A stretch of 64,000 bases of DNA from Fimbriimonadia bacterium (GTDB lineage Bacteria; Armatimonadota; Fimbriimonadia; Fimbriimonadales; JABRVX01): contig JABRVX010000040.1 in assembly GCA_039961735.1 (NCBI GenBank), positions 1-64,000 on the forward strand, written 5' to 3'. The notes under the pieces were generated by a model that worked only from the letters and a program-made list of their open reading frames with translations, did not search any database and had not been told where the DNA came from. Shown one piece after another: positions 20,708 to 57,991 of the stretch. A program made the position numbers and the translations under genes. Position 1 is the first letter of the stretch, and every line of letters starts with the position of its first letter.

Positions 20708-21042
20708 CGGGCTGATCCGGTACCCTGCAACACACCCGCTCACGACACGATCTCTCGCTGGGCAGGGTGTCGAGATGCTCGCCGGTATGCGGCGCAGGCG
20801 AGGCTGCTTTCCCGGACCGTCGTTCTCGTCTGAGAAAGTCGCGCAGGAAAGCGCCCCGCCGAGATCTCGGAGTGGTCGGAGAAGAGGGTGGTGCAGCCAG
20901 GCTGGTCACGGCGCAGCGCCATCACCGCTGCCGCAGACCGGGTCGCAGCATCGCGCCTCTCGAAGGTGGTCACGCCGTCGCCGCCAGTTCTCGTCTACAC
21001 GCGAGAATGCCCCGAAGTGCAATAATGTGGGGTCGTTGCGCT

Positions 21043-46852: not shown

Positions 46853-48265
46853 CTATTTGGCGTCTCGCGTGACTGCGGGCCAGTCGTCGGTGCGAAACGG
46901 CGAGGCGGGCAGGCCATTGCCATTGACCAGATTGGGATTCGCTAAGTCGCTCCATGCATAGCGCACTGCCACAGGGTGCTCGATACCGTCGGCCCACACC
47001 ACCACCTGGCTACCATCAATACGTGCGTGCGCAGGCACGAACTTGCGGTCGGCTCCAGCAATCTGAAAGTCGCTAGGCGCCTTTCCGTCCGACGTGGCGA
47101 GTCCCTTCTCAGCATAGCGAAAACTGATACGTGCTTCATGGCCTACTACTGTCATCTTCTCGAACAGCGGTCCGCTGAATGTGACGTTCTTGCCGTAGTC
47201 TTTCGCTAGGGCCCACAATGCGAGCCGGCGCCCCACCTCCTGCTTGTTGCGTGGGTGGATGTCGTTCACGTCACCGATGTCCATGGTGACAACCATACCG
47301 GTGTTGCGTAAGCGCAGCGCATGGGCCTGGGCCTCTCGAAGCTCCGCGCATGCCTCCGGCGCATTGTAGCGATAGGGCGCTATCTGCACGTAGTAGAACG
47401 GGAAATCCCCGCGACCCCAAGCTTTTCGCCAGCCTTGGACCATGGTAGGGAACAGAGTGCGGTACTGCCACGCGCGGCCTACGTTCGACTCGCCCTGATA
47501 CCAGATGACTCCTCGAATGCGATAGGGGATCAGCGGGGCTATCATGCCGTTGAAGAGGTAACTCGGCTTGGCCGCGGGATGAACTCCACTGTCGTCCAGT
47601 CGAGCGAGCAGGGGCCCTAACTCCGAGCCGCGCTCGATTTCGCGCAGTGGAGTCCATGCTTCTGCAGGCGTGCCGCCCCACGACGCGTTAATCATCCCGA
47701 CCGGCACCCCGAGCGCTCTGCGTAGCTCCCGCGCGAAGAAGTAGCCGACTGCGGAGAACCGGCCGACAGTCTCGGGGCCAGCAGCTTGCCATCGCCCATC
47801 GCAGTCGGTAGCGGGGATGGGTGAGCTGGCACGGACCACCGTGAACATGCGGATTCGCGGGTCGTTTGCTTCGGCAACTTCCTTCTCGGCGTTCTCCGAA
47901 GCCGACACCGGCCACTCCATGTTCGACTGGCCCGAGCACACCCACACCTCGCCGATGAGCACGTCGCCCACCTCGACGCGGTTTCTACCCTGCACGACCA
48001 ATGTCAGAGGTTTCGTGGACGCCGCAAGGGGTGGCATGGTGAGAACCCAGCGCCCCGCTGAGTCCGCTGTGGTCGTACGCCTCGAGCTTCCTATCTCGAC
48101 AACGACTCTTTCGCCCTTGTCGGCCCATCCCCACACGGGGAACTGGGCATCCCGTTGCAACACCATTCCGTCCGTGAACAGCTTGGGCAGTCGAACGTCA
48201 GCGGGAGCAGAGGCGGCGAGCGCGAGCACCGCAGCACAGAACGAGAGTGGCCGAGAAGGCGACAT
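46853..48265 (-). CDS. Secreted sialate O-acetylesterase family protein (SASA/SGNH)
   Basis: A 470-residue exported esterase. After a signal peptide (SFCAAVLALAASAPA), the SASA pattern starts at LPKLFTDGMVLQRDAQFPVWGWAD. The nucleophile Ser lies in VWVCSGQSNMEWPV, with INASWGGTPAEAW, GVIWYQGESN and the catalytic Asp/His region DVNDIHPRNK. It should remove O-acetyl groups from sialic acids or other glycans. ATG 48265 is taken from the signal peptide; in-frame starts at 48289 and 48349 exist. Together with the GH95 enzyme 1.4 kb downstream it suggests use of host- or plant-type glycans. Confidence 0.9.
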   Translation of the reverse strand: MSPSRPLSFCAAVLALAASAPADVRLPKLFTDGMVLQRDAQFPVWGWADKGERVVVEIGSSRRTTTADSAGRWVLTMPPLAASTKPLTLVVQGRNRVEVGDVLIGEVWVCSGQSNMEWPVSASENAEKEVAEANDPRIRMFTVVRASSPIPATDCDGRWQAAGPETVGRFSAVGYFFARELRRALGVPVGMINASWGGTPAEAWTPLREIERGSELGPLLARLDDSGVHPAAKPSYLFNGMIAPLIPYRIRGVIWYQGESNVGRAWQYRTLFPTMVQGWRKAWGRGDFPFYYVQIAPYRYNAPEACAELREAQAHALRLRNTGMVVTMDIGDVNDIHPRNKQEVGRRLALWALAKDYGKNVTFSGPLFEKMTVVGHEARISFRYAEKGLATSDGKAPSDFQIAGADRKFVPAHARIDGSQVVVWADGIEHPVAVRYAWSDLANPNLVNGNGLPASPFRTDDWPAVTRDAK

Positions 48266-48335
48266 TGCAGGCACCGGTCCTTCCGTCATCGGTTGGCCCG
48301 ATGCTACCCTACCTGCGGGGGCCTGCCAAAGAACG

Positions 48336-48363
48336 CGACGCCGCAGCACGTGCTGCGGCGTCG
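48336..48363 (-). terminator. 28-bp perfect palindrome, terminator of the Spy-like gene
   Basis: The two 14-base arms CGACGCCGCAGCAC and GTGCTGCGGCGTCG abut with no mismatch. Read leftward, the hairpin is followed by CGTTCTTT, a T-rich tract, 61 bp after the Spy-like stop. This makes a good intrinsic terminator for that gene. Confidence 0.65.
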
Positions 48364-49655: not shown

Positions 49656-52127
49656 ATGCTCTGTACATTCCTCGCCACAGGGGGATTGATTGCCATGGCC
49701 TCGACCATCGGCCACATCACGCAGGGAGACGAGCCGCATCCCGCTTCCACCCTGCTCTGGTACCGCACGCCCGCCGCGGTCTTCACCGAAGCCCTGCCCA
49801 TCGGCAACGGACGGCTGGGCGGCATGGTGTACGGTCGCACGGCGCACGAGTTGGTTCGCTTGAACGAGGATACGGTCTGGACCGGGGGCCCCTACGACCC
49901 TCATGGAGCCGGCAAGGGCGCAGCCACGCTTCCCGAGATCCGGCGCTTGGTGTTCGAGGGCAAGGGCCGCGAGGCCGAAGAACTCTTCGAAAAGGAGATG
50001 ATGTCGAAAACCTGGGAGATGGCATCCTACCAGCCTCTCGGCGATCTCGAACTATGGTTTCCGGGGCACGACACCGTAACCGACTACCGCCGTGAGCTGG
50101 ATCTAGACACTGCTATCGCCACCGTCACCTATCGAGTCGGGGAAACCAGCTACCGCCGTGAGTACCTCTGCTCGCCGGTGGATCAGGTGCTGGTAGTGCG
50201 CATAACAGCGGACAAGCCTGGTGCCGTGTCCGTGGATGCAACGTTGCGCGGTCGCACCAACACGAAGTATGCAACCGACGCTGAGTTTCGTATAAGTAGC
50301 GAGAAGCCTGACACGATTATCTTGTCCGGCAAAACGGCATCGTACGCGGAGGCAGGGGGCGTCGTCTATGAAGCTCGCTTGGTGAGCAAGAGCGATGGTG
50401 GCGGCATGTCGCTCGTCCGTACATCGGAACACGACACGCTGCGAGTGCGAAATGCCGATTCGGTGACGCTACTGGTTACCGCCGCCACCAACTTCGGCAC
50501 TTTCCGGGAGTGGGGGAGCGACCCCTCGACAAAGAACCGTGACACGCTGGCCGAGGCCGGTTCTCGCTCCTATGACCGCATCCGCGAGGAACATGTGGCC
50601 GCGCACCGGACGCTCTTTCGCCGTGTCACACTCGATCTGGGCGAAACGACCCACTCGGCGCTGCCTACCAACGAGAGGTTCGCCGCGTTTGCCGAAGGTC
50701 GTGACCCCGCACTGCCGGCGCTCTACTTCCAGTTCGGCCGTTACCTACTCATCTCGTCGTCTCGGCCCGGCGATCAGCCGGCCAACCTGCAGGGTTTGTG
50801 GAACGAGGACATGAACCCGGCGTGGGGCTGCAAGTACACCACGAACATCAACGCCGAGATGAACTATTGGCCGGCCGAGGTATGTAACCTGTCAGAGTGT
50901 CATGAGCCGCTATTCGACCTGATCCGCGACCTATCGATCGCGGGGGCGGAGACCGCTAAGCGCAACTGGGGTGCTTCGGGCTGGGTCCTGGGGCATAACA
51001 CCGACCTGTGGCGTGCGACGGCACCGATCCACGGAGCGTACTGGGCCGCGTGGCACACTGGGGCGGCATGGCTTTGCACACACCTATGGGAGCGCTACCA
51101 GTTCTCGGGCGACGAGGCCTTCCTGGCCACGGTGTATCCGGTCATGAAAGGGGCGGCGCAGTTCTTCCTGGACACGTTGATAGAGCATCCGAAGTATGGG
51201 TGGCTCGTTACGTGCCCCAGTAGCTCGCCGGAGAACGGTCCGGGGGGCGACAAGGCCTGGAAGTGGAACCCCGATGGTACCTACGTGAAGCCCGTGGGCA
51301 TCTGTGCAGGCCCGGCGGTGGACACCCAGATCCTGAGCGAGTTCCTCGCACAGTGTGCCCAGGCAGCGACCATTCTCGAGACCGATGCCGAGTTCCGAGA
51401 CAAGCTCCTGGCCGCGCGAGCGAAGCTACCACCTATGCAGATCGGCAAACACGGTCAGTTGCAGGAGTGGCTCGAGGACCTGGACGACCCGAACGACAAA
51501 CACCGGCACGTCTCGCACATGTGGGGCGTATGCCCAGGAGTGACCATCTCTCCCCACAAGACACCGGATCTCGCGAACGCCGCGAGGCAATCACTGAATA
51601 TGAGGGGTGACGAAGGGCCAGGCTGGTCCATGGCATGGAAGATTAATCTGTGGGCCAGGCTCCTCGATGGCGAGCACGCTTATACGCTGATCCGAAAAGC
51701 ACTCACGCTGTCCGAGGACTCCCTTGTCACGCCCCCACGCGGAGGCACCTATCCCAACCTATTCTGCTGCCACCCGCCCTTCCAGATTGATGGCAACCTC
51801 GGAGCTACCGCGGGAATAGCCGAGATGCTGCTTCAAAGCCACCTCGGAGAGATTCACTTGCTACCCGCCCTGCCCTCTGCTTGGTCTACCGGGTCGTTCT
51901 CCGGGCTGCGGGCGCGCGGTGGCTTCGAGGTGTCCGCACGCTGGGCGGACGGGAAGCTGGTGGAAGCCACCATCCGCTCGTCGAGAGGTGGGGTGGCGAA
52001 CGTGAGGGTAGGGCAGCAAGTAGTGGTAACGCGCGACGGCCAAGCTGTCCTCGCCCGCAAGCCCGAGCCAGGCGTGATTCAGTTCGATACGATTGCCGGT
52101 GAGACGTACCTCCTCCGTGCGAAGTAG
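49656..52127 (+). CDS. GH95 family alpha-L-fucosidase
   Basis: An 823-residue inverting glycosidase that hydrolyses terminal alpha-1,2-fucose (some GH95 members act on alpha-L-galactose). It starts its N-terminal beta domain at [30 protein letters not shown]. The catalytic parts are all present: [16 protein letters not shown] (the paired Asn, near residue 397), [13 protein letters not shown] (the general acid Glu, near 524) and [11 protein letters not shown] (the Asp, near 712). ATG 49656 gives a short hydrophobic start that may be a weak signal; ATG 49695 is an alternative. It follows the tRNA pair but has its own coding context. Confidence 0.93.
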
Positions 52128-52269: not shown

Positions 52270-52295
52270 TGCTCCTAGCTGCCGCGCTAGGAGCA
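52270..52295 (-). terminator. Hairpin overlapping the end of the ogt gene
   Basis: A 9-bp stem TGCTCCTAG/CTAGGAGCA with an 8-base loop. The stop codon of the convergent ogt gene lies in the right arm. There is no clear T tract on either side. Confidence 0.3.
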
Positions 52296-52769
52296 ACGTA
52301 ACTCGAAATCGAGAAGGTACCGCTTACGGTCGGTGCCGCCTGCGTACCCGGTAAGGCAGCCGCGCGTTCCCACCACCCTATGGCATGGTATGATGATGGA
52401 GATGGGATTCCTCGCGATGGCCCCCGCCACCGCCCGCACGGCATCCGGCCGGCCCAGGCACCTCGCCAGCGCACCGTAGGTGGTGGTAGTCCCGTAGGGG
52501 ACATCCAGCAGCTCATGCCACACCTCGCGCTGGAACTCCGTACCTTCTAAGCAGAGCGGCAGATCGAACTCCCGCAACACCCCGTCAAAGTATGCGCGTA
52601 GCTGCTCCTCCGCTCGACGGAGAATCGGTACGTCCGATCCGAACACCCATTCGGCTGCAGCTACGGGACCGCGCCTGTGATCTTCGAAGTACACCCCCGT
52701 CAGTTCGTCACGGTTCGATAGCAGCAACAGCGGTCCTACCGGAAACGCGACCTTCCTCGCATACACCAC
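52287..52769 (-). CDS. ogt: Methylated-DNA--protein-cysteine methyltransferase
   Basis: This suicide enzyme removes O6-methylguanine lesions by moving the alkyl group to its own cysteine. The 160-residue protein has the active site IIIPCHRVVG with acceptor Cys129, the recognition helix GTTTTYGALARCLGRPDAVRAVAGAIARNP and the C-terminal GGTDRKRYLLDFE. No Ada-type regulatory domain is fused, so Ogt is the closest name. It starts (GTG) one base after the S9 peptidase stop, implying co-transcription. Confidence 0.94.
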   Translation of the reverse strand: MVYARKVAFPVGPLLLLSNRDELTGVYFEDHRRGPVAAAEWVFGSDVPILRRAEEQLRAYFDGVLREFDLPLCLEGTEFQREVWHELLDVPYGTTTTYGALARCLGRPDAVRAVAGAIARNPISIIIPCHRVVGTRGCLTGYAGGTDRKRYLLDFELRCS

Positions 52770-52770
52770 C

Positions 52771-55260
52771 CTAGCCTCCGGGCGCGATGTCCCACTCGGG
52801 CGTGCTCGCAGACACCGTATACCAGGAGACGGCGCGACCGTTCACGTGGGCCTCCCACTCGTGCCCCACGTAGGAGTGTTGACGCACCTCTTGCCCGGGC
52901 GCGAGGTCGTGGTACTTTCGCAGCGACCCCGAGCCCTCCACCCAATACACCGTGACCGGTTTGTCCAGCAGGTTGCGTATCACGATGTCGCACGAGCTGT
53001 CGGCCGGGCCTTTCATCACATACTCGTGTGGCGGCTCCACACCTAACAGGTGTCGCGTGAAATAGTCCCACATGCGACGTGTCACGTAGGGTCCGAAGCC
53101 ATGGCCCGCACCTGGCACGATCAGCATGTCGAAGTCCTTGTTCGCCTTGATCAGTGCATCCGCGAATCGCATGGTGGCAGCCGAAGGGTTGACGTTATCG
53201 TCCAGCTCTCCGTGCACTAACAACAGCTTGCCCTGCAGCTTCGCCGCCTGATCCACGTTGGACTGCTCCGCGTAGTGCGGACCGACCGGGTACCCCATCC
53301 AGAGCTCGTTCCACCACACCTTGTCGGTCCTATGATCGTGATTGCCGGACATGGCCACGGCCACCTTATAGAACTCGGGGTGTGCAATCAGGGCCCGCGC
53401 GGCGTTATAGCCTCCGGCGGACGACCCATAGATACCGACACGTGTCAGGTCCATGTAGGGGTACTTCTCAGCGGCCGCCTTCATCCAAAGGATGCGATCC
53501 GGGAAGCCGCTGTCACCCAAGTTCTTGTAGGCTACGTCGTGAAAGGCCTTGGAGCGGTTCGCCGTACCCATGCCATCAATCTTCACCACGATGAACCCCA
53601 GCTCCGCCAACCCTTGCATCCCACGTTGGGCGCTGAAGGATTTCGGCACGAACGAGCTCTGCGGTCCCGCATAGATGTCCTCGATCACCGGGTATTTGCG
53701 TGTCGGGTCGAAGTTGGATGGCCGAAATATGACGCCCCAGATGTCGGTCTTGCCGTCGCGTCCCTTCGCTACGAACGGTTCCGGCATCTGCCATCCGGTG
53801 GCAAGCAATGCCGAGGCGTCCGCTTTCTCCAGCACGCACACCAGGGATCCATCGGAGGTTCGGCGCAGCTCCGTGATGGGGGGCATGTCTACGCGGGAGT
53901 AGGTATCTATGTAGTACTTGCCGTCGGGAGAAAAGCGTATGGTGTGATCGCCGTTTCCCGGCGTCAGGCATAGCAGCCCCGTACCGTCGAAGTTCACACG
54001 GTAGTAGTGAAGAAGATAAGGGTCCCGGTTCGGCTCTCGTCCACTCGCCGCGAACAGGATCTGCCTTGACTGTTCGTCCACCTTATCGATTCGCCGGACT
54101 ACCCACTCGCCGGATGTGACGCGCGACTTCACCTCACCGGTCTCGGCATCGAACAAGTAGATGTGGTTCCACCCGTCCCTCTGTGACGTCCACAGAATCT
54201 CGTTGGTGGCGTCCAGGTAGTGGATAAATCGTACCGGTGGGTATACGAAGGTATTGGTGGTCTCGTCTATGATGGCACGTGCTTTGCCCGTGCTCGCATC
54301 CACTTCTACCACGCGCTCGCGGCGGAATGCCCGATACGGCTGCTCGTAGGTGAAGCGCTTCCCGTCAGCCTTCCATCGCAGCACCGGCATGCCACCTGAA
54401 TCGATCGGGTCGGTGTCCACCCTCACGCCTTTCTTTGTTTGCGCGTCGAACACCCACATCTCGTGCACGTCCAGCTTGTCGCCCGGCAGCGCGTAGCCGT
54501 ATTGGCGCAGCTTGGGGCGGAACGAGTCGGGCGGTGTGGACTCGACAGCGTACATGGGCAGGATCTCTCCAGGTTGGGTGCGAAGCGCTACCACGTATCT
54601 CGAGTCTGGTGACCAGCGAACCTCTCCGTAGCGGTTCTCGGCCACGCCGTCGGTGGTCAGCGGTGTCTCCGGGCCGTCGGGCAGCTCGCGCAGATAGAGG
54701 TTGTGCTCGCGCACCTCCACCCGCATCTTCCCGTCCGGGGACACGTCGGGTCGCCTCGGCTGGAGCGCGCCTCGACGCGGTGGCTGCTCCCGCGCGGGCG
54801 TGCTGCGAGGCGCCTCTACGGCCCTGCACGCATAGGAACCGAGGTGGCACTTCCACCACTGCGAACCTGCCCGGAACGTCACCTCGGTGCCGTATTCCTC
54901 GGCGTAGCGCTCCAGAATGATGGAGGAGAAGGGGAGCCTCTTCGGGTCGTGCTTGGTGCCCGTGGCTTCGCTCAGAGCCGCAGCCAGCCGCGCGTGGTCG
55001 AAGGCGGGCTTGCGTTCGCCCTTCTCCGGGTCCACCAATATGAACTCGCGCTCGTCGCCGAACTGGTTGAGATACCAGAAGCGCGGCCCGTCGCCGAGCC
55101 AGTGCGGCTGCACGGAGGCCCCGCGAACCAGCCTGCCCATCTCGGGCGAGGCGAACCGCTCGGCCCGCTCGTAGGCCTCGCGCATGGCATCCTGCCCCGA
55201 CACGGGAAGGTAAGCGAGAGCGAGAAGCAGTAGCCCAGCAGAAATTCTCGATACCGTCAT
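52771..55260 (-). CDS. S9 prolyl oligopeptidase-type (DPP IV-like) peptidase with VHL-beta-like C-terminus
   Basis: An 829-residue exported peptidase that releases dipeptides or cuts after Pro. Signal peptide SAGLLLLALAYLPVSGQ is followed by an 8-bladed-propeller-type DPPIV_N region (DVSPDGKMRVEV, EVRWSPDSRYVVALR, WTSQRDGWNHIYLFD, IRFSPDGKYYIDTYS). The alpha/beta-hydrolase domain has Ser614 (GSSAGG), the Asp687/Asp688 pair (HGELDDNV) and His720 (GAGHGF). After the usual end, residues about 750-829 form an extra module with VYWVEGSGSLRKYHDLAPGQ and HSYVGHEWEAH, closely following the beta domain of pVHL. ATG 55260 is chosen from the signal peptide. Confidence 0.9.
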   Translation of the reverse strand: MTVSRISAGLLLLALAYLPVSGQDAMREAYERAERFASPEMGRLVRGASVQPHWLGDGPRFWYLNQFGDEREFILVDPEKGERKPAFDHARLAAALSEATGTKHDPKRLPFSSIILERYAEEYGTEVTFRAGSQWWKCHLGSYACRAVEAPRSTPAREQPPRRGALQPRRPDVSPDGKMRVEVREHNLYLRELPDGPETPLTTDGVAENRYGEVRWSPDSRYVVALRTQPGEILPMYAVESTPPDSFRPKLRQYGYALPGDKLDVHEMWVFDAQTKKGVRVDTDPIDSGGMPVLRWKADGKRFTYEQPYRAFRRERVVEVDASTGKARAIIDETTNTFVYPPVRFIHYLDATNEILWTSQRDGWNHIYLFDAETGEVKSRVTSGEWVVRRIDKVDEQSRQILFAASGREPNRDPYLLHYYRVNFDGTGLLCLTPGNGDHTIRFSPDGKYYIDTYSRVDMPPITELRRTSDGSLVCVLEKADASALLATGWQMPEPFVAKGRDGKTDIWGVIFRPSNFDPTRKYPVIEDIYAGPQSSFVPKSFSAQRGMQGLAELGFIVVKIDGMGTANRSKAFHDVAYKNLGDSGFPDRILWMKAAAEKYPYMDLTRVGIYGSSAGGYNAARALIAHPEFYKVAVAMSGNHDHRTDKVWWNELWMGYPVGPHYAEQSNVDQAAKLQGKLLLVHGELDDNVNPSAATMRFADALIKANKDFDMLIVPGAGHGFGPYVTRRMWDYFTRHLLGVEPPHEYVMKGPADSSCDIVIRNLLDKPVTVYWVEGSGSLRKYHDLAPGQEVRQHSYVGHEWEAHVNGRAVSWYTVSASTPEWDIAPGG

Positions 55261-55387
55261 GGCTCTTCGGTGATTCGTGGCCAGCCATGCCTTCTCCTGG
55301 ATACGGCACGAGCGTCGTAGGACGCCTCTAGCCCGTCCGAGCAGCGGGGCATCATACTTAAGGGGCAATCGAGCCCGAGGAGACGGA

Positions 55388-57991
55388 ATGGCCGAAGCAG
55401 ACGAACGATACGACCCGAAGAGCATCGAACCGAAGTGGCAGTCCCGGTGGGAAGATGCCGATATCTTCCGAACCACGGAAGATCCTGGCAAGCCGAAGGC
55501 ATACGGTCTCGACTTCTTTCCCTACCCCAGCGGGGCGGGAATCTCTGTGGGGCACTGTCGGAACTACATCCCGACCGACGTGTACTGCCGTCTGATGCGA
55601 ATGGCAGGCCACAACGTACTGCACCCCATGGGTTGGGATGCCTTCGGCCTACCTGCCGAAAACGAAGCCATTCAGAAGCGGAGCCACCCGAAAAAGACCG
55701 TTCCGCAGTACATCGCCACCTACAAGCGGCAGATGAAGCTGATCGGCATCGGCTACGACTGGTCGCGCGAAATCAATTCCAGCGACCCGAGCTATTACAG
55801 GTGGACGCAGTGGTGCTTCAACGTGCTCTTTCGACGCGGCCTCGCGTATCGCTCGTTCGCTCCGGCAAACTGGTGCCCCTCCTGCCGCACGGTGTTAGCG
55901 AACGAAGAGGTCCAAGGCGGCTTGTGCTGGCGCTGTGGCTCGCCTGCAGAGAAGAAGCAGTTACCGCAGTGGTTCTTCAAGATAACCGACTACGCGGACC
56001 GCCTGCTATATGACCTCGACGACCTCGATTGGCCAGAAGGCATCAAGATGATGCAACGCAACTGGATCGGGCGCAGCGAGGGCGTGGAGTTCCAGATGGA
56101 GGTGGCAGGCACGGGTAAGTCGTTCCGCGCCTTTACCACACGCATTGACACGATCTTCGGTGTTACCTTCTGTGTGTTTGCACCGGAGCACCCATTGGTT
56201 GCCGAGGTGACAGCGCCCGAGTGTCGGGCGGCGGTCGAGGAGTACGTGCGACAGGCACAGCATGTAAGCGAGATGGACCGCATGGCAGCGGAGCGCGAAC
56301 GCACCGGAGTGTTCACCGGCGCCTATGCAATCAACCCCGTCAATGGGGAGCACGTTCCCATCTGGGTGGCGGACTACGTGCTAATGGGCTACGGCACGGG
56401 TGCGATCATGGCGGTGCCGGGACATGACGAAAGGGATTTCGACTTCGCACGAAAGTATGGGCTGGAGATACGACGTGTCATCTGCCCGCCGGGCAAGAAC
56501 CCGAATGATCCTATCACAGAGGCCGAGCCTGCCGATGGAGTGATGGTGAACTCCGGGGACTTCACCGGGCTACCATCGGACGAAGGCAAGGAGCGATTGG
56601 CAGAGTGGTTCGAGTCGCGCGGTTTGGGCGAGCGAAAGGTGAACTATCGCCTTCGGGACTGGTTGATCTCTCGCCAGCGTTATTGGGGTGCGCCTATCCC
56701 CATCGTTCACTGCACTTCTTGCGGCGAGGTGGCCGTGCCAGACGAGCAGCTGCCCGTGCTACTACCCGATGTCGAGAACTACGAGCCCTCGGGAACTGGC
56801 GAGTCCCCACTGGCAGCGATTCCGGAGTTCGTGGACACGTCCTGTCCTCGATGCGGAAGGGGTGCGAAGAGGGAAACGGACACCATGGGTGGTTTCGCCT
56901 GCTCCAGTTGGTATTTCCTGCGGTTCGCGGATCCACACAATCAGGAAAGAGCGTGGGACCCCGAAAAGGTAGCTTACTGGCTCCCCGTGGATTGTTACGT
57001 GGGTGGCGCCGAACACGCCGTCATGCACCTGCTGTATGCGCGATTCTGGACCAAGGTGTTCTACGACGCAGGTCTGGTGCCGTTCCAGGAGCCTTTCGAG
57101 CGACTCGTCAATCAAGGCATGGTTCTCGCGCAGACCCCTTATCGCCGTCCGCGCGAGGGCGAGCGCCTGCGAGTGGGCGAAGAAGGCATCTTGATCTCGC
57201 GCCCCGAGGCCGAGAGGCTTCCCTCCGATCAGGTGATCTGGAAGTGGGAGAAGATGTCTAAGTCGAAAGGCAACGTGGTGACTCCGGAGGAAGTCGTAGA
57301 CGAGTACGGCGCAGACGCCTTGCGTGTCTACGAGCTGTTCGTCGCCCCGTTCGACATGAACGTGCAGTGGTCCACCGAAGGGATCGTCGGTGCTAACAGG
57401 TTCCTCGGCCGGGTCTGGCGGCTGTTCTGGCAGGCTCGCCCGCTCTTCATCCGTGAGTGGCGTGATCTGCTGGGAGACGAGTTCGACGATCGCTCCAGAG
57501 AGTTGCGACGGAAGACACACACTACCATCAAGCGCGTGTGCGACGATATCCGGGACTTTCGGTTCAACACGGCAGTCGCGGCGATGATGGAGTGGCTGAA
57601 CGCCATCGCAGACTTCGTTCAGGTGGGCACCCCAGAGAGACAGCACCGAGTTGCGCTCAGCGAGGCGGTGGAGGCCTTCATGCGCCTGCTCTCACCCATC
57701 GCACCACACATCGCGGACGAGCTGTGGGAGCGGTATGGCTTTACGGGCTTTCTCTTTCTCGACCAACTGCCTGTCTATGATGAGGCCGTGGCAGCCGCGG
57801 ACGAGGTGACCATCGCCGTGCAAGTGAACGGTAAGCTGCGCGCGACGCTCTCGGCGCCTGCATCGGCATCGAACTCAGACCTCGAGCAGCTCGCGCTCGG
57901 TCATCCCAAGGTGACACCCCACCTAGCCGGCGTCACCGTTCGCAAAGTGATCGTCGTCCCCGGCAGACTGGTCAACATCGTGGCAAACTAG
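55388..57991 (+). CDS. leuS: Leucine--tRNA ligase
   Basis: The class I synthetase charges tRNA-Leu. The 867-residue protein has the HIGH-type motif as PYPSGAGISVGHCRNY near residue 45, a zinc site (CPSC...CWRCG) near 162, an editing domain including MGYGTGAIMAVPGHDERD and a second CxxC pair (CTSCGE...CPRCGR). It also has YVGGAEHAVMHLLYARFWTK and KMSKSKGNVV near 622, then the anticodon-binding and C-terminal domains. The insertion of Ile-Ser in place of the more common Gly-Leu-His before VGH is a normal variant. ATG 55388 has GAGGAG five bases upstream; the open frame before it reads into the divergent gene's leader. Confidence 0.97.
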   Translation: MAEADERYDPKSIEPKWQSRWEDADIFRTTEDPGKPKAYGLDFFPYPSGAGISVGHCRNYIPTDVYCRLMRMAGHNVLHPMGWDAFGLPAENEAIQKRSHPKKTVPQYIATYKRQMKLIGIGYDWSREINSSDPSYYRWTQWCFNVLFRRGLAYRSFAPANWCPSCRTVLANEEVQGGLCWRCGSPAEKKQLPQWFFKITDYADRLLYDLDDLDWPEGIKMMQRNWIGRSEGVEFQMEVAGTGKSFRAFTTRIDTIFGVTFCVFAPEHPLVAEVTAPECRAAVEEYVRQAQHVSEMDRMAAERERTGVFTGAYAINPVNGEHVPIWVADYVLMGYGTGAIMAVPGHDERDFDFARKYGLEIRRVICPPGKNPNDPITEAEPADGVMVNSGDFTGLPSDEGKERLAEWFESRGLGERKVNYRLRDWLISRQRYWGAPIPIVHCTSCGEVAVPDEQLPVLLPDVENYEPSGTGESPLAAIPEFVDTSCPRCGRGAKRETDTMGGFACSSWYFLRFADPHNQERAWDPEKVAYWLPVDCYVGGAEHAVMHLLYARFWTKVFYDAGLVPFQEPFERLVNQGMVLAQTPYRRPREGERLRVGEEGILISRPEAERLPSDQVIWKWEKMSKSKGNVVTPEEVVDEYGADALRVYELFVAPFDMNVQWSTEGIVGANRFLGRVWRLFWQARPLFIREWRDLLGDEFDDRSRELRRKTHTTIKRVCDDIRDFRFNTAVAAMMEWLNAIADFVQVGTPERQHRVALSEAVEAFMRLLSPIAPHIADELWERYGFTGFLFLDQLPVYDEAVAAADEVTIAVQVNGKLRATLSAPASASNSDLEQLALGHPKVTPHLAGVTVRKVIVVPGRLVNIVAN

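Follow-up and report, generated by a model that had tools for sequence, protein, structure and literature searches.

The 64,000-nt stretch of Fimbriimonadia DNA analyzed here (the window) encodes on its minus strand an S9-family hydrolase that ends in a domain resembling the beta domain of the von Hippel-Lindau protein (pVHL), whose hydroxyproline pocket has a central part in the oxygen sensing of animals and in PROTAC drugs. The locus raises the question of whether this is a true VHL domain and, if so, which ligand its pocket could hold and what it might contribute to the hydrolase. The gene and the domains of its product were assigned as follows:

52771-55491, minus strand: enclosing open reading frame
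52771-55260, minus strand: CDS of an S9-family serine hydrolase with C-terminal VHL domain, putatively secreted, 829 aa
55192-55260, minus strand: signal-peptide-like N-terminus MTVSRISAGLLLLALAYLPVSGQ, assigned from the sequence itself
53878-54753, minus strand: DPPIV_N beta-propeller region (PF00930, 9e-49)
53047-53622, minus strand: Peptidase_S9 catalytic domain (PF00326, 1.7e-44) with Ser614 in GSSAGG, Asp687 and His720
52774-53007, minus strand: VHL beta domain, residues 752-829 (about 78 residues); Pfam match 52855-52995

The reading frame offers an ATG (55258-55260) and an alternative in-frame TTG 77 codons upstream of it, and the ATG was taken as the start because the signal-peptide-like stretch comes directly after it. 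Since the protein opens with this stretch, its export is likely. Of the "secreted S9 peptidase" proposed in an earlier sequence-only reading, the family assignment was thus confirmed by Pfam and secretion stands as likely.

That reading had based a VHL-beta-like C-terminal domain on the strings YWVEGSG...LAPGQ and HSYVGHEW, both of which are present in this frame where they had been reported. The Pfam VHL model (PF01847) matched residues 756-802 of 829 (window 52855-52995) with 26.0 bits in hmmscan and 29.1 bits in the genome search, above its curated gathering cut-off of 21. The same model had no match in any of 14 control genomes and matched in only one of 247 genomes of the Bacteroidota (the phylum of a Pedobacter genome), and it is therefore not noise-prone. 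When the single sequence was searched against PDB sequences, all of the best matches were human pVHL, but they were weak (E 0.05, 25% identity), as would be expected if the resemblance of this small beta domain to VHL had arisen by chance. A profile of 12 relatives, however, recovered pVHL at E 5e-9, followed by the first non-VHL chain at 0.006. In the AlphaFold2 model the domain forms a sandwich of seven strands (pLDDT about 96 over the core), and all Foldseek matches listed for this model in the PDB were pVHL complexes (best TMq 0.71, rmsd 1.9), the beta domain of human pVHL (1LM8, 4AWJ, 7CJB) being alike in predicted fold at a TMq of about 0.7 and an rmsd of about 1.9 in the closest chains. 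Together with the Pfam score and the blank control genomes, the profile and fold results already refute chance similarity, which we consider hardly conceivable. A search of a viral structure library yielded weak matches only. The predicted strands reach residue 825, making the domain slightly bigger than its Pfam match. Both checks suggested in the sequence-only reading, the VHL profile search and the structure prediction, hence came out in favor of a real VHL domain, and its identity can, short of crystallographic proof, be regarded as settled by profile, predicted fold and pocket residues. Unlike human pVHL, the bacterial domain is fused to a putatively secreted hydrolase. The alpha domain with the elongin C-binding box, a feature of the pVHL E3 ligase, is absent, as the protein stops right after the beta domain and has no more Pfam matches.

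According to a review, the hydroxyproline site of pVHL consists of Trp88, Tyr98, His110, Ser111, His115 and Trp117, with the hydroxyl group bonded to Ser111 and His115 (PMC9528729). Alignment with relatives and human pVHL placed five of these positions in the window, all on the minus strand:

52942-52944, minus strand: Trp773, equivalent to pVHL Trp88 (pocket)
52912-52914, minus strand: Tyr783, equivalent to pVHL Tyr98 (pocket)
52873-52875, minus strand: Ser796, equivalent to pVHL Ser111 (hydroxyl contact; Thr in about 90% of relatives)
52861-52863, minus strand: His800, equivalent to pVHL His115 (hydroxyl contact)
52855-52857, minus strand: Trp802, equivalent to pVHL Trp117 (pocket)

All five residues (W773, Y783, S796, H800 and W802) are kept in the window domain, together with an equivalent of pVHL N78, and the agreement with the pVHL pocket that the sequence-only reading had looked for was found to be near-invariant in the S9-linked family. 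A first alignment comprised the window domain and 64 further VHL domains of the source phylum, Armatimonadota, plus human pVHL, the 65 bacterial domains amounting to about 49 effective sequences. Ranked by information, its top seven columns were H115, W88, W117, Y98, N78, F76 and S/T111 (pVHL numbering) and included all five aligned pocket residues; the ranking favors rare residues and the sequences are related, so that no p-value was relied on. Position His110, of which the backbone is used, varies (54% His). In a wider set of 134 bacterial domains including Planctomycetota and Verrucomicrobiota, with a mean pairwise identity of about 30% over the whole set, 91 of the 93 S9-linked domains had the full combination of W, Y, S/T, H and W, the exceptions being L079 (W117F) and L232 (H115A, Planctomycetota). 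Domains linked to HExxH proteins kept His115 in 11/11 cases and the full pocket in 10/11. Those linked to sulfatases (7/7) and sialate esterases (SASA, 3/3) had Ala at position 115, yet kept W88, Y98, T111 and W117, and LRR-linked VHL domains likewise had Ala at 115. In the Planctomycetota sulfatases with C-terminal VHL (L233, L235-L237, L239, L242 and L244), TRPGA replaces the HSYxGH motif and His115 is always Ala; judged by these residues, their domains are a sub-family with an altered pocket.

Since His115 is missing from the sulfatase- and SASA-linked domains, the VHL domain evidently tolerates its loss, and its retention on the peptidases therefore suggests that a ligand with a hydroxyl group is being selected for. 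Among the indirect arguments for hydroxyproline this one is the strongest, and the pocket pattern on the peptidases agrees with the prediction for a domain that recognizes a hydroxylated, proline-like ligand. Several observations speak against a hydroxyproline ligand: 90% of the relatives have Thr rather than Ser at position 111, the Planctomycetota S9-VHL protein L232 has Ala at 115, and the S9-linked domains share ancestry, so that their conservation represents fewer independent events than sequences. In addition, the rim residues that flank the pocket in pVHL differ and are unconserved, and any peptide context would therefore be different as well.

With regard to the hydrolase, the full-length protein matched best, in sequence as well as in fold, the prolyl tripeptidyl aminopeptidase (PTP) of P. 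gingivalis and bacterial DPP-IV. It shares with these family S9B enzymes (PTP structures 2D5L/2EEP) the propeller and alpha/beta hydrolase, the Ser-Asp-His residues and the oxyanion Tyr in YAGP, and its catalytic S614, D687 and H720 are invariant in the alignments. In contrast, the loop carrying the E-E motif, which binds the substrate N-terminus, is missing (a gap of about 12 residues in the alignment with 2D5L), and the residues Y604, W632, Y635 and Y639 of PTP, which we take to line the proline pocket, are replaced by A, H/N, D and W in 127/127 subfamily sequences, an equivalence of positions that rests on an ungapped phmmer alignment with the PTP numbering tied to the variants S603A and E636A named in titles of PDB entries. 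The position of PTP E636 is occupied by Lys (K647) in 127/127 sequences, and the place of the DPP-IV substrate pocket is taken by a subfamily-wide motif, D-x-R-x-D-K-xx-W-N-E-xW-M-G (window 53047-53622). The pocket replacement is common to VHL-bearing and VHL-less members. By these sequence features the hydrolase belongs to an S9 subfamily that is distinct from DPP-IV and to which VHL has been added in some members, and the invariant Lys hints at an unusual specificity, VHL-less members included. The earlier description of the protein as an enzyme that acts at Pro could not be upheld: with the aromatic proline pocket and the N-terminus-binding Glu gone in the whole subfamily, the specificity determinants of DPP-IV and PTP are absent and cleavage at Pro does not follow. 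Another S9 paralog of the same genome (825-aa frame, L256) has canonical YEEE and GWSYGG motifs.

In most relatives VHL lies as an insert ahead of DPPIV_N, after the N-terminal region. The propeller region of the window protein, in contrast, is free of such an insert; here and in 11 other proteins VHL is C-terminal and the insertion site consists of a short linker only. When named genomes were scanned, 80 S9 relatives were obtained, 69 of them without VHL; the closest named relatives were Armatimonadetes MAGs (59-61%), and several loci of the window's own phylum have S9 cores identical to those of Armatimonadetes MAGs. In an IQ-TREE phylogeny of 60 rows, calculated from the S9 core without VHL, the N-inserted and the C-terminal forms fell on different sides of supported branches. 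A single clade for both forms was rejected (AU p=5e-6), as was joining the window's C-terminal clade to the N-inserted form (p 0.0007), and the pairing of S9 and VHL therefore came about no fewer than two times, through separate fusions or through relocation of the domain. A single origin of the C-terminal form stays compatible with the tree (AU p 0.105), and in a larger quick tree this constraint even scored higher (p 0.70); for this reason we claim two separate attachments and not three. A mixed alignment including VHL fragments was dropped due to misalignment of the fragments.

VHL was detected in 63 of the 291 genomes of the Armatimonadota as well as in 56 of the 392 genomes of the Planctomycetota (the phylum of a Planctomyces genome), in both phyla predominantly on a single S9 subfamily. 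Outside S9, VHL was encountered on, among others, HExxH proteins, sulfatases, sialate esterases, LRR proteins, a MORN-repeat kinase, a caspase-domain protein and an ArsR-type regulator. The second VHL domain of the source genome (L001/L061, contig C42 about 20862-21023) forms the C-terminal end of a HEFAH (HExxH) protein that is putatively secreted and gave no Pfam match besides VHL; the same arrangement is found again elsewhere in the phylum and among Planctomycetota (L043, L052, L201, L202 and L210). In L095 (G119:C79) an ArsR-type HTH is followed by a VHL domain keeping W, Y, T, H and W; from its domain composition this protein could possibly be a cytoplasmic regulator that senses a VHL ligand. 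At four loci (L238, L245, L241 and L229) VHL accompanies a Ser/Thr kinase that has MORN repeats, a caspase-domain protein (in two copies) and an F5/8C-NPCBM protein, and there are also adjacent SASA-VHL and LRR-VHL genes.

The genome contains no prolyl hydroxylase of PF13640, the family that presumably holds the known bacterial prolyl 4-hydroxylases, and 54 of the 63 VHL-bearing genomes of the phylum lack PF13640 as well. The ligand is therefore unlikely to depend on a PF13640 hydroxylase of the cell itself, and such an enzyme was discarded as its source. Similarly, hydroxyproline catabolism was dropped as a line of support, since the only PF05544 match is a diaminopimelate epimerase by sequence and the search revealed no hydroxyproline epimerase in the genome. 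With neither enzyme found in the PF13640 and PF05544 searches, any hydroxyproline ligand would most likely be foreign and come from outside the cell. Within the phylum, co-occurrence of VHL and PF13640 was slightly above chance (9/63 versus 11/228, Fisher p 0.02, ignoring genome size and kinship), a signal too weak to use. The genes surrounding the peptidase are the following:

52287-52769, minus strand: O6-methylguanine-DNA methyltransferase (MGMT), directly downstream with operon-like spacing
49656-52127, plus strand: GH95 glycosidase
46853-48349, minus strand: sialate O-acetylesterase (SASA)

The PCHRV motif of the MGMT gene was absent from 10 relative loci, and the pairing of MGMT with S9-VHL therefore seems unconserved. 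A sialate-esterase-like gene is located about 2 kb from the S9-VHL gene of L103. Scanning 80 loci for a sialate-esterase motif revealed no association with S9-VHL, although the scan is insensitive and its motif missed the L103 gene as well. The neighboring GH95 and SASA genes would suit a lifestyle of degrading glycoproteins or polysaccharides, without being proof of it.

The explanation we favor is that the VHL beta domain was attached to this hydrolase as a ligand-binding module. The pocket used by pVHL would hold 4-hydroxyproline, or a very similar hydroxylated ring, within an extended protein chain and thereby tether the enzyme to an extracellular hydroxyproline protein, such as collagen debris or a glycoprotein of plant or algal walls. 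The S9 domain would then cleave this protein. Whether the window domain binds hydroxyproline and tethers the enzyme in this way is, in our judgment from the sequence, evenly balanced; collagen and plant-wall targets are hypothetical. The main rival keeps the true VHL domain and has its pocket accommodate another ligand, e.g. unmodified proline, some other residue that is hydroxylated or glycosylated, or a small cyclic compound. Conservation of the pocket core alone and not of the HIF-contacting rim, the Thr in place of Ser at 111 in most members, and the frequency of VHL without His115 on sulfatases and esterases, which indicates that the family can bind other ligands, would all agree with such a pocket. 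The hydroxyl-contacting S/T111 and H115, on the other hand, accompany the rest of the pocket in 91/93 S9-linked domains and would be needless for plain proline, and we regard another ligand as rather unlikely.

It is also conceivable, albeit improbable, that VHL serves to sort, anchor or pack exported proteins instead of binding substrate. Its C-terminal location on many unrelated and probably exported proteins (sulfatases, sialate esterases, HExxH and LRR proteins) is reminiscent of C-terminal sorting domains, but most S9 relatives have the domain before the propeller and an ArsR-type regulator carries it too, while a packing role leaves an aromatic pocket with His/Thr unexplained.

Bacterial VHL domains as such are already known from Pfam, and a VHL-domain protein of another bacterium, Litorilituus EMK97_00595, was annotated as 'tumor suppressor' in 2022 (PMC9002001); a peptidase fusion is not discussed in the examined part of that paper. 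In the open-licence literature we found nothing on bacterial VHL function beyond this annotation. As far as our searches show, the repeated attachment of VHL to one peptidase subfamily, the selective keeping of its pocket there and the loss of the DPP-IV determinants are apparently undescribed. Tentatively, and with somewhat less confidence than an even chance would warrant, we propose that the VHL fold serves Armatimonadota and Planctomycetota as a mobile unit by which secreted peptidases bind hydroxyproline, and that its attachment happened independently more than once. Hydroxyproline recognition by this pocket would then not be confined to oxygen sensing in animals and may be older. Because natural VHL domains with His115 and others lacking it exist, the ligand question can be put to a direct test. 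If hydroxyproline is indeed bound, these domains would provide small stable binders for hydroxyproline proteins as well as a test of the origin of the VHL domain, and an older or a parallel function of the VHL pocket would be to hold matrix proteins rich in hydroxyproline.
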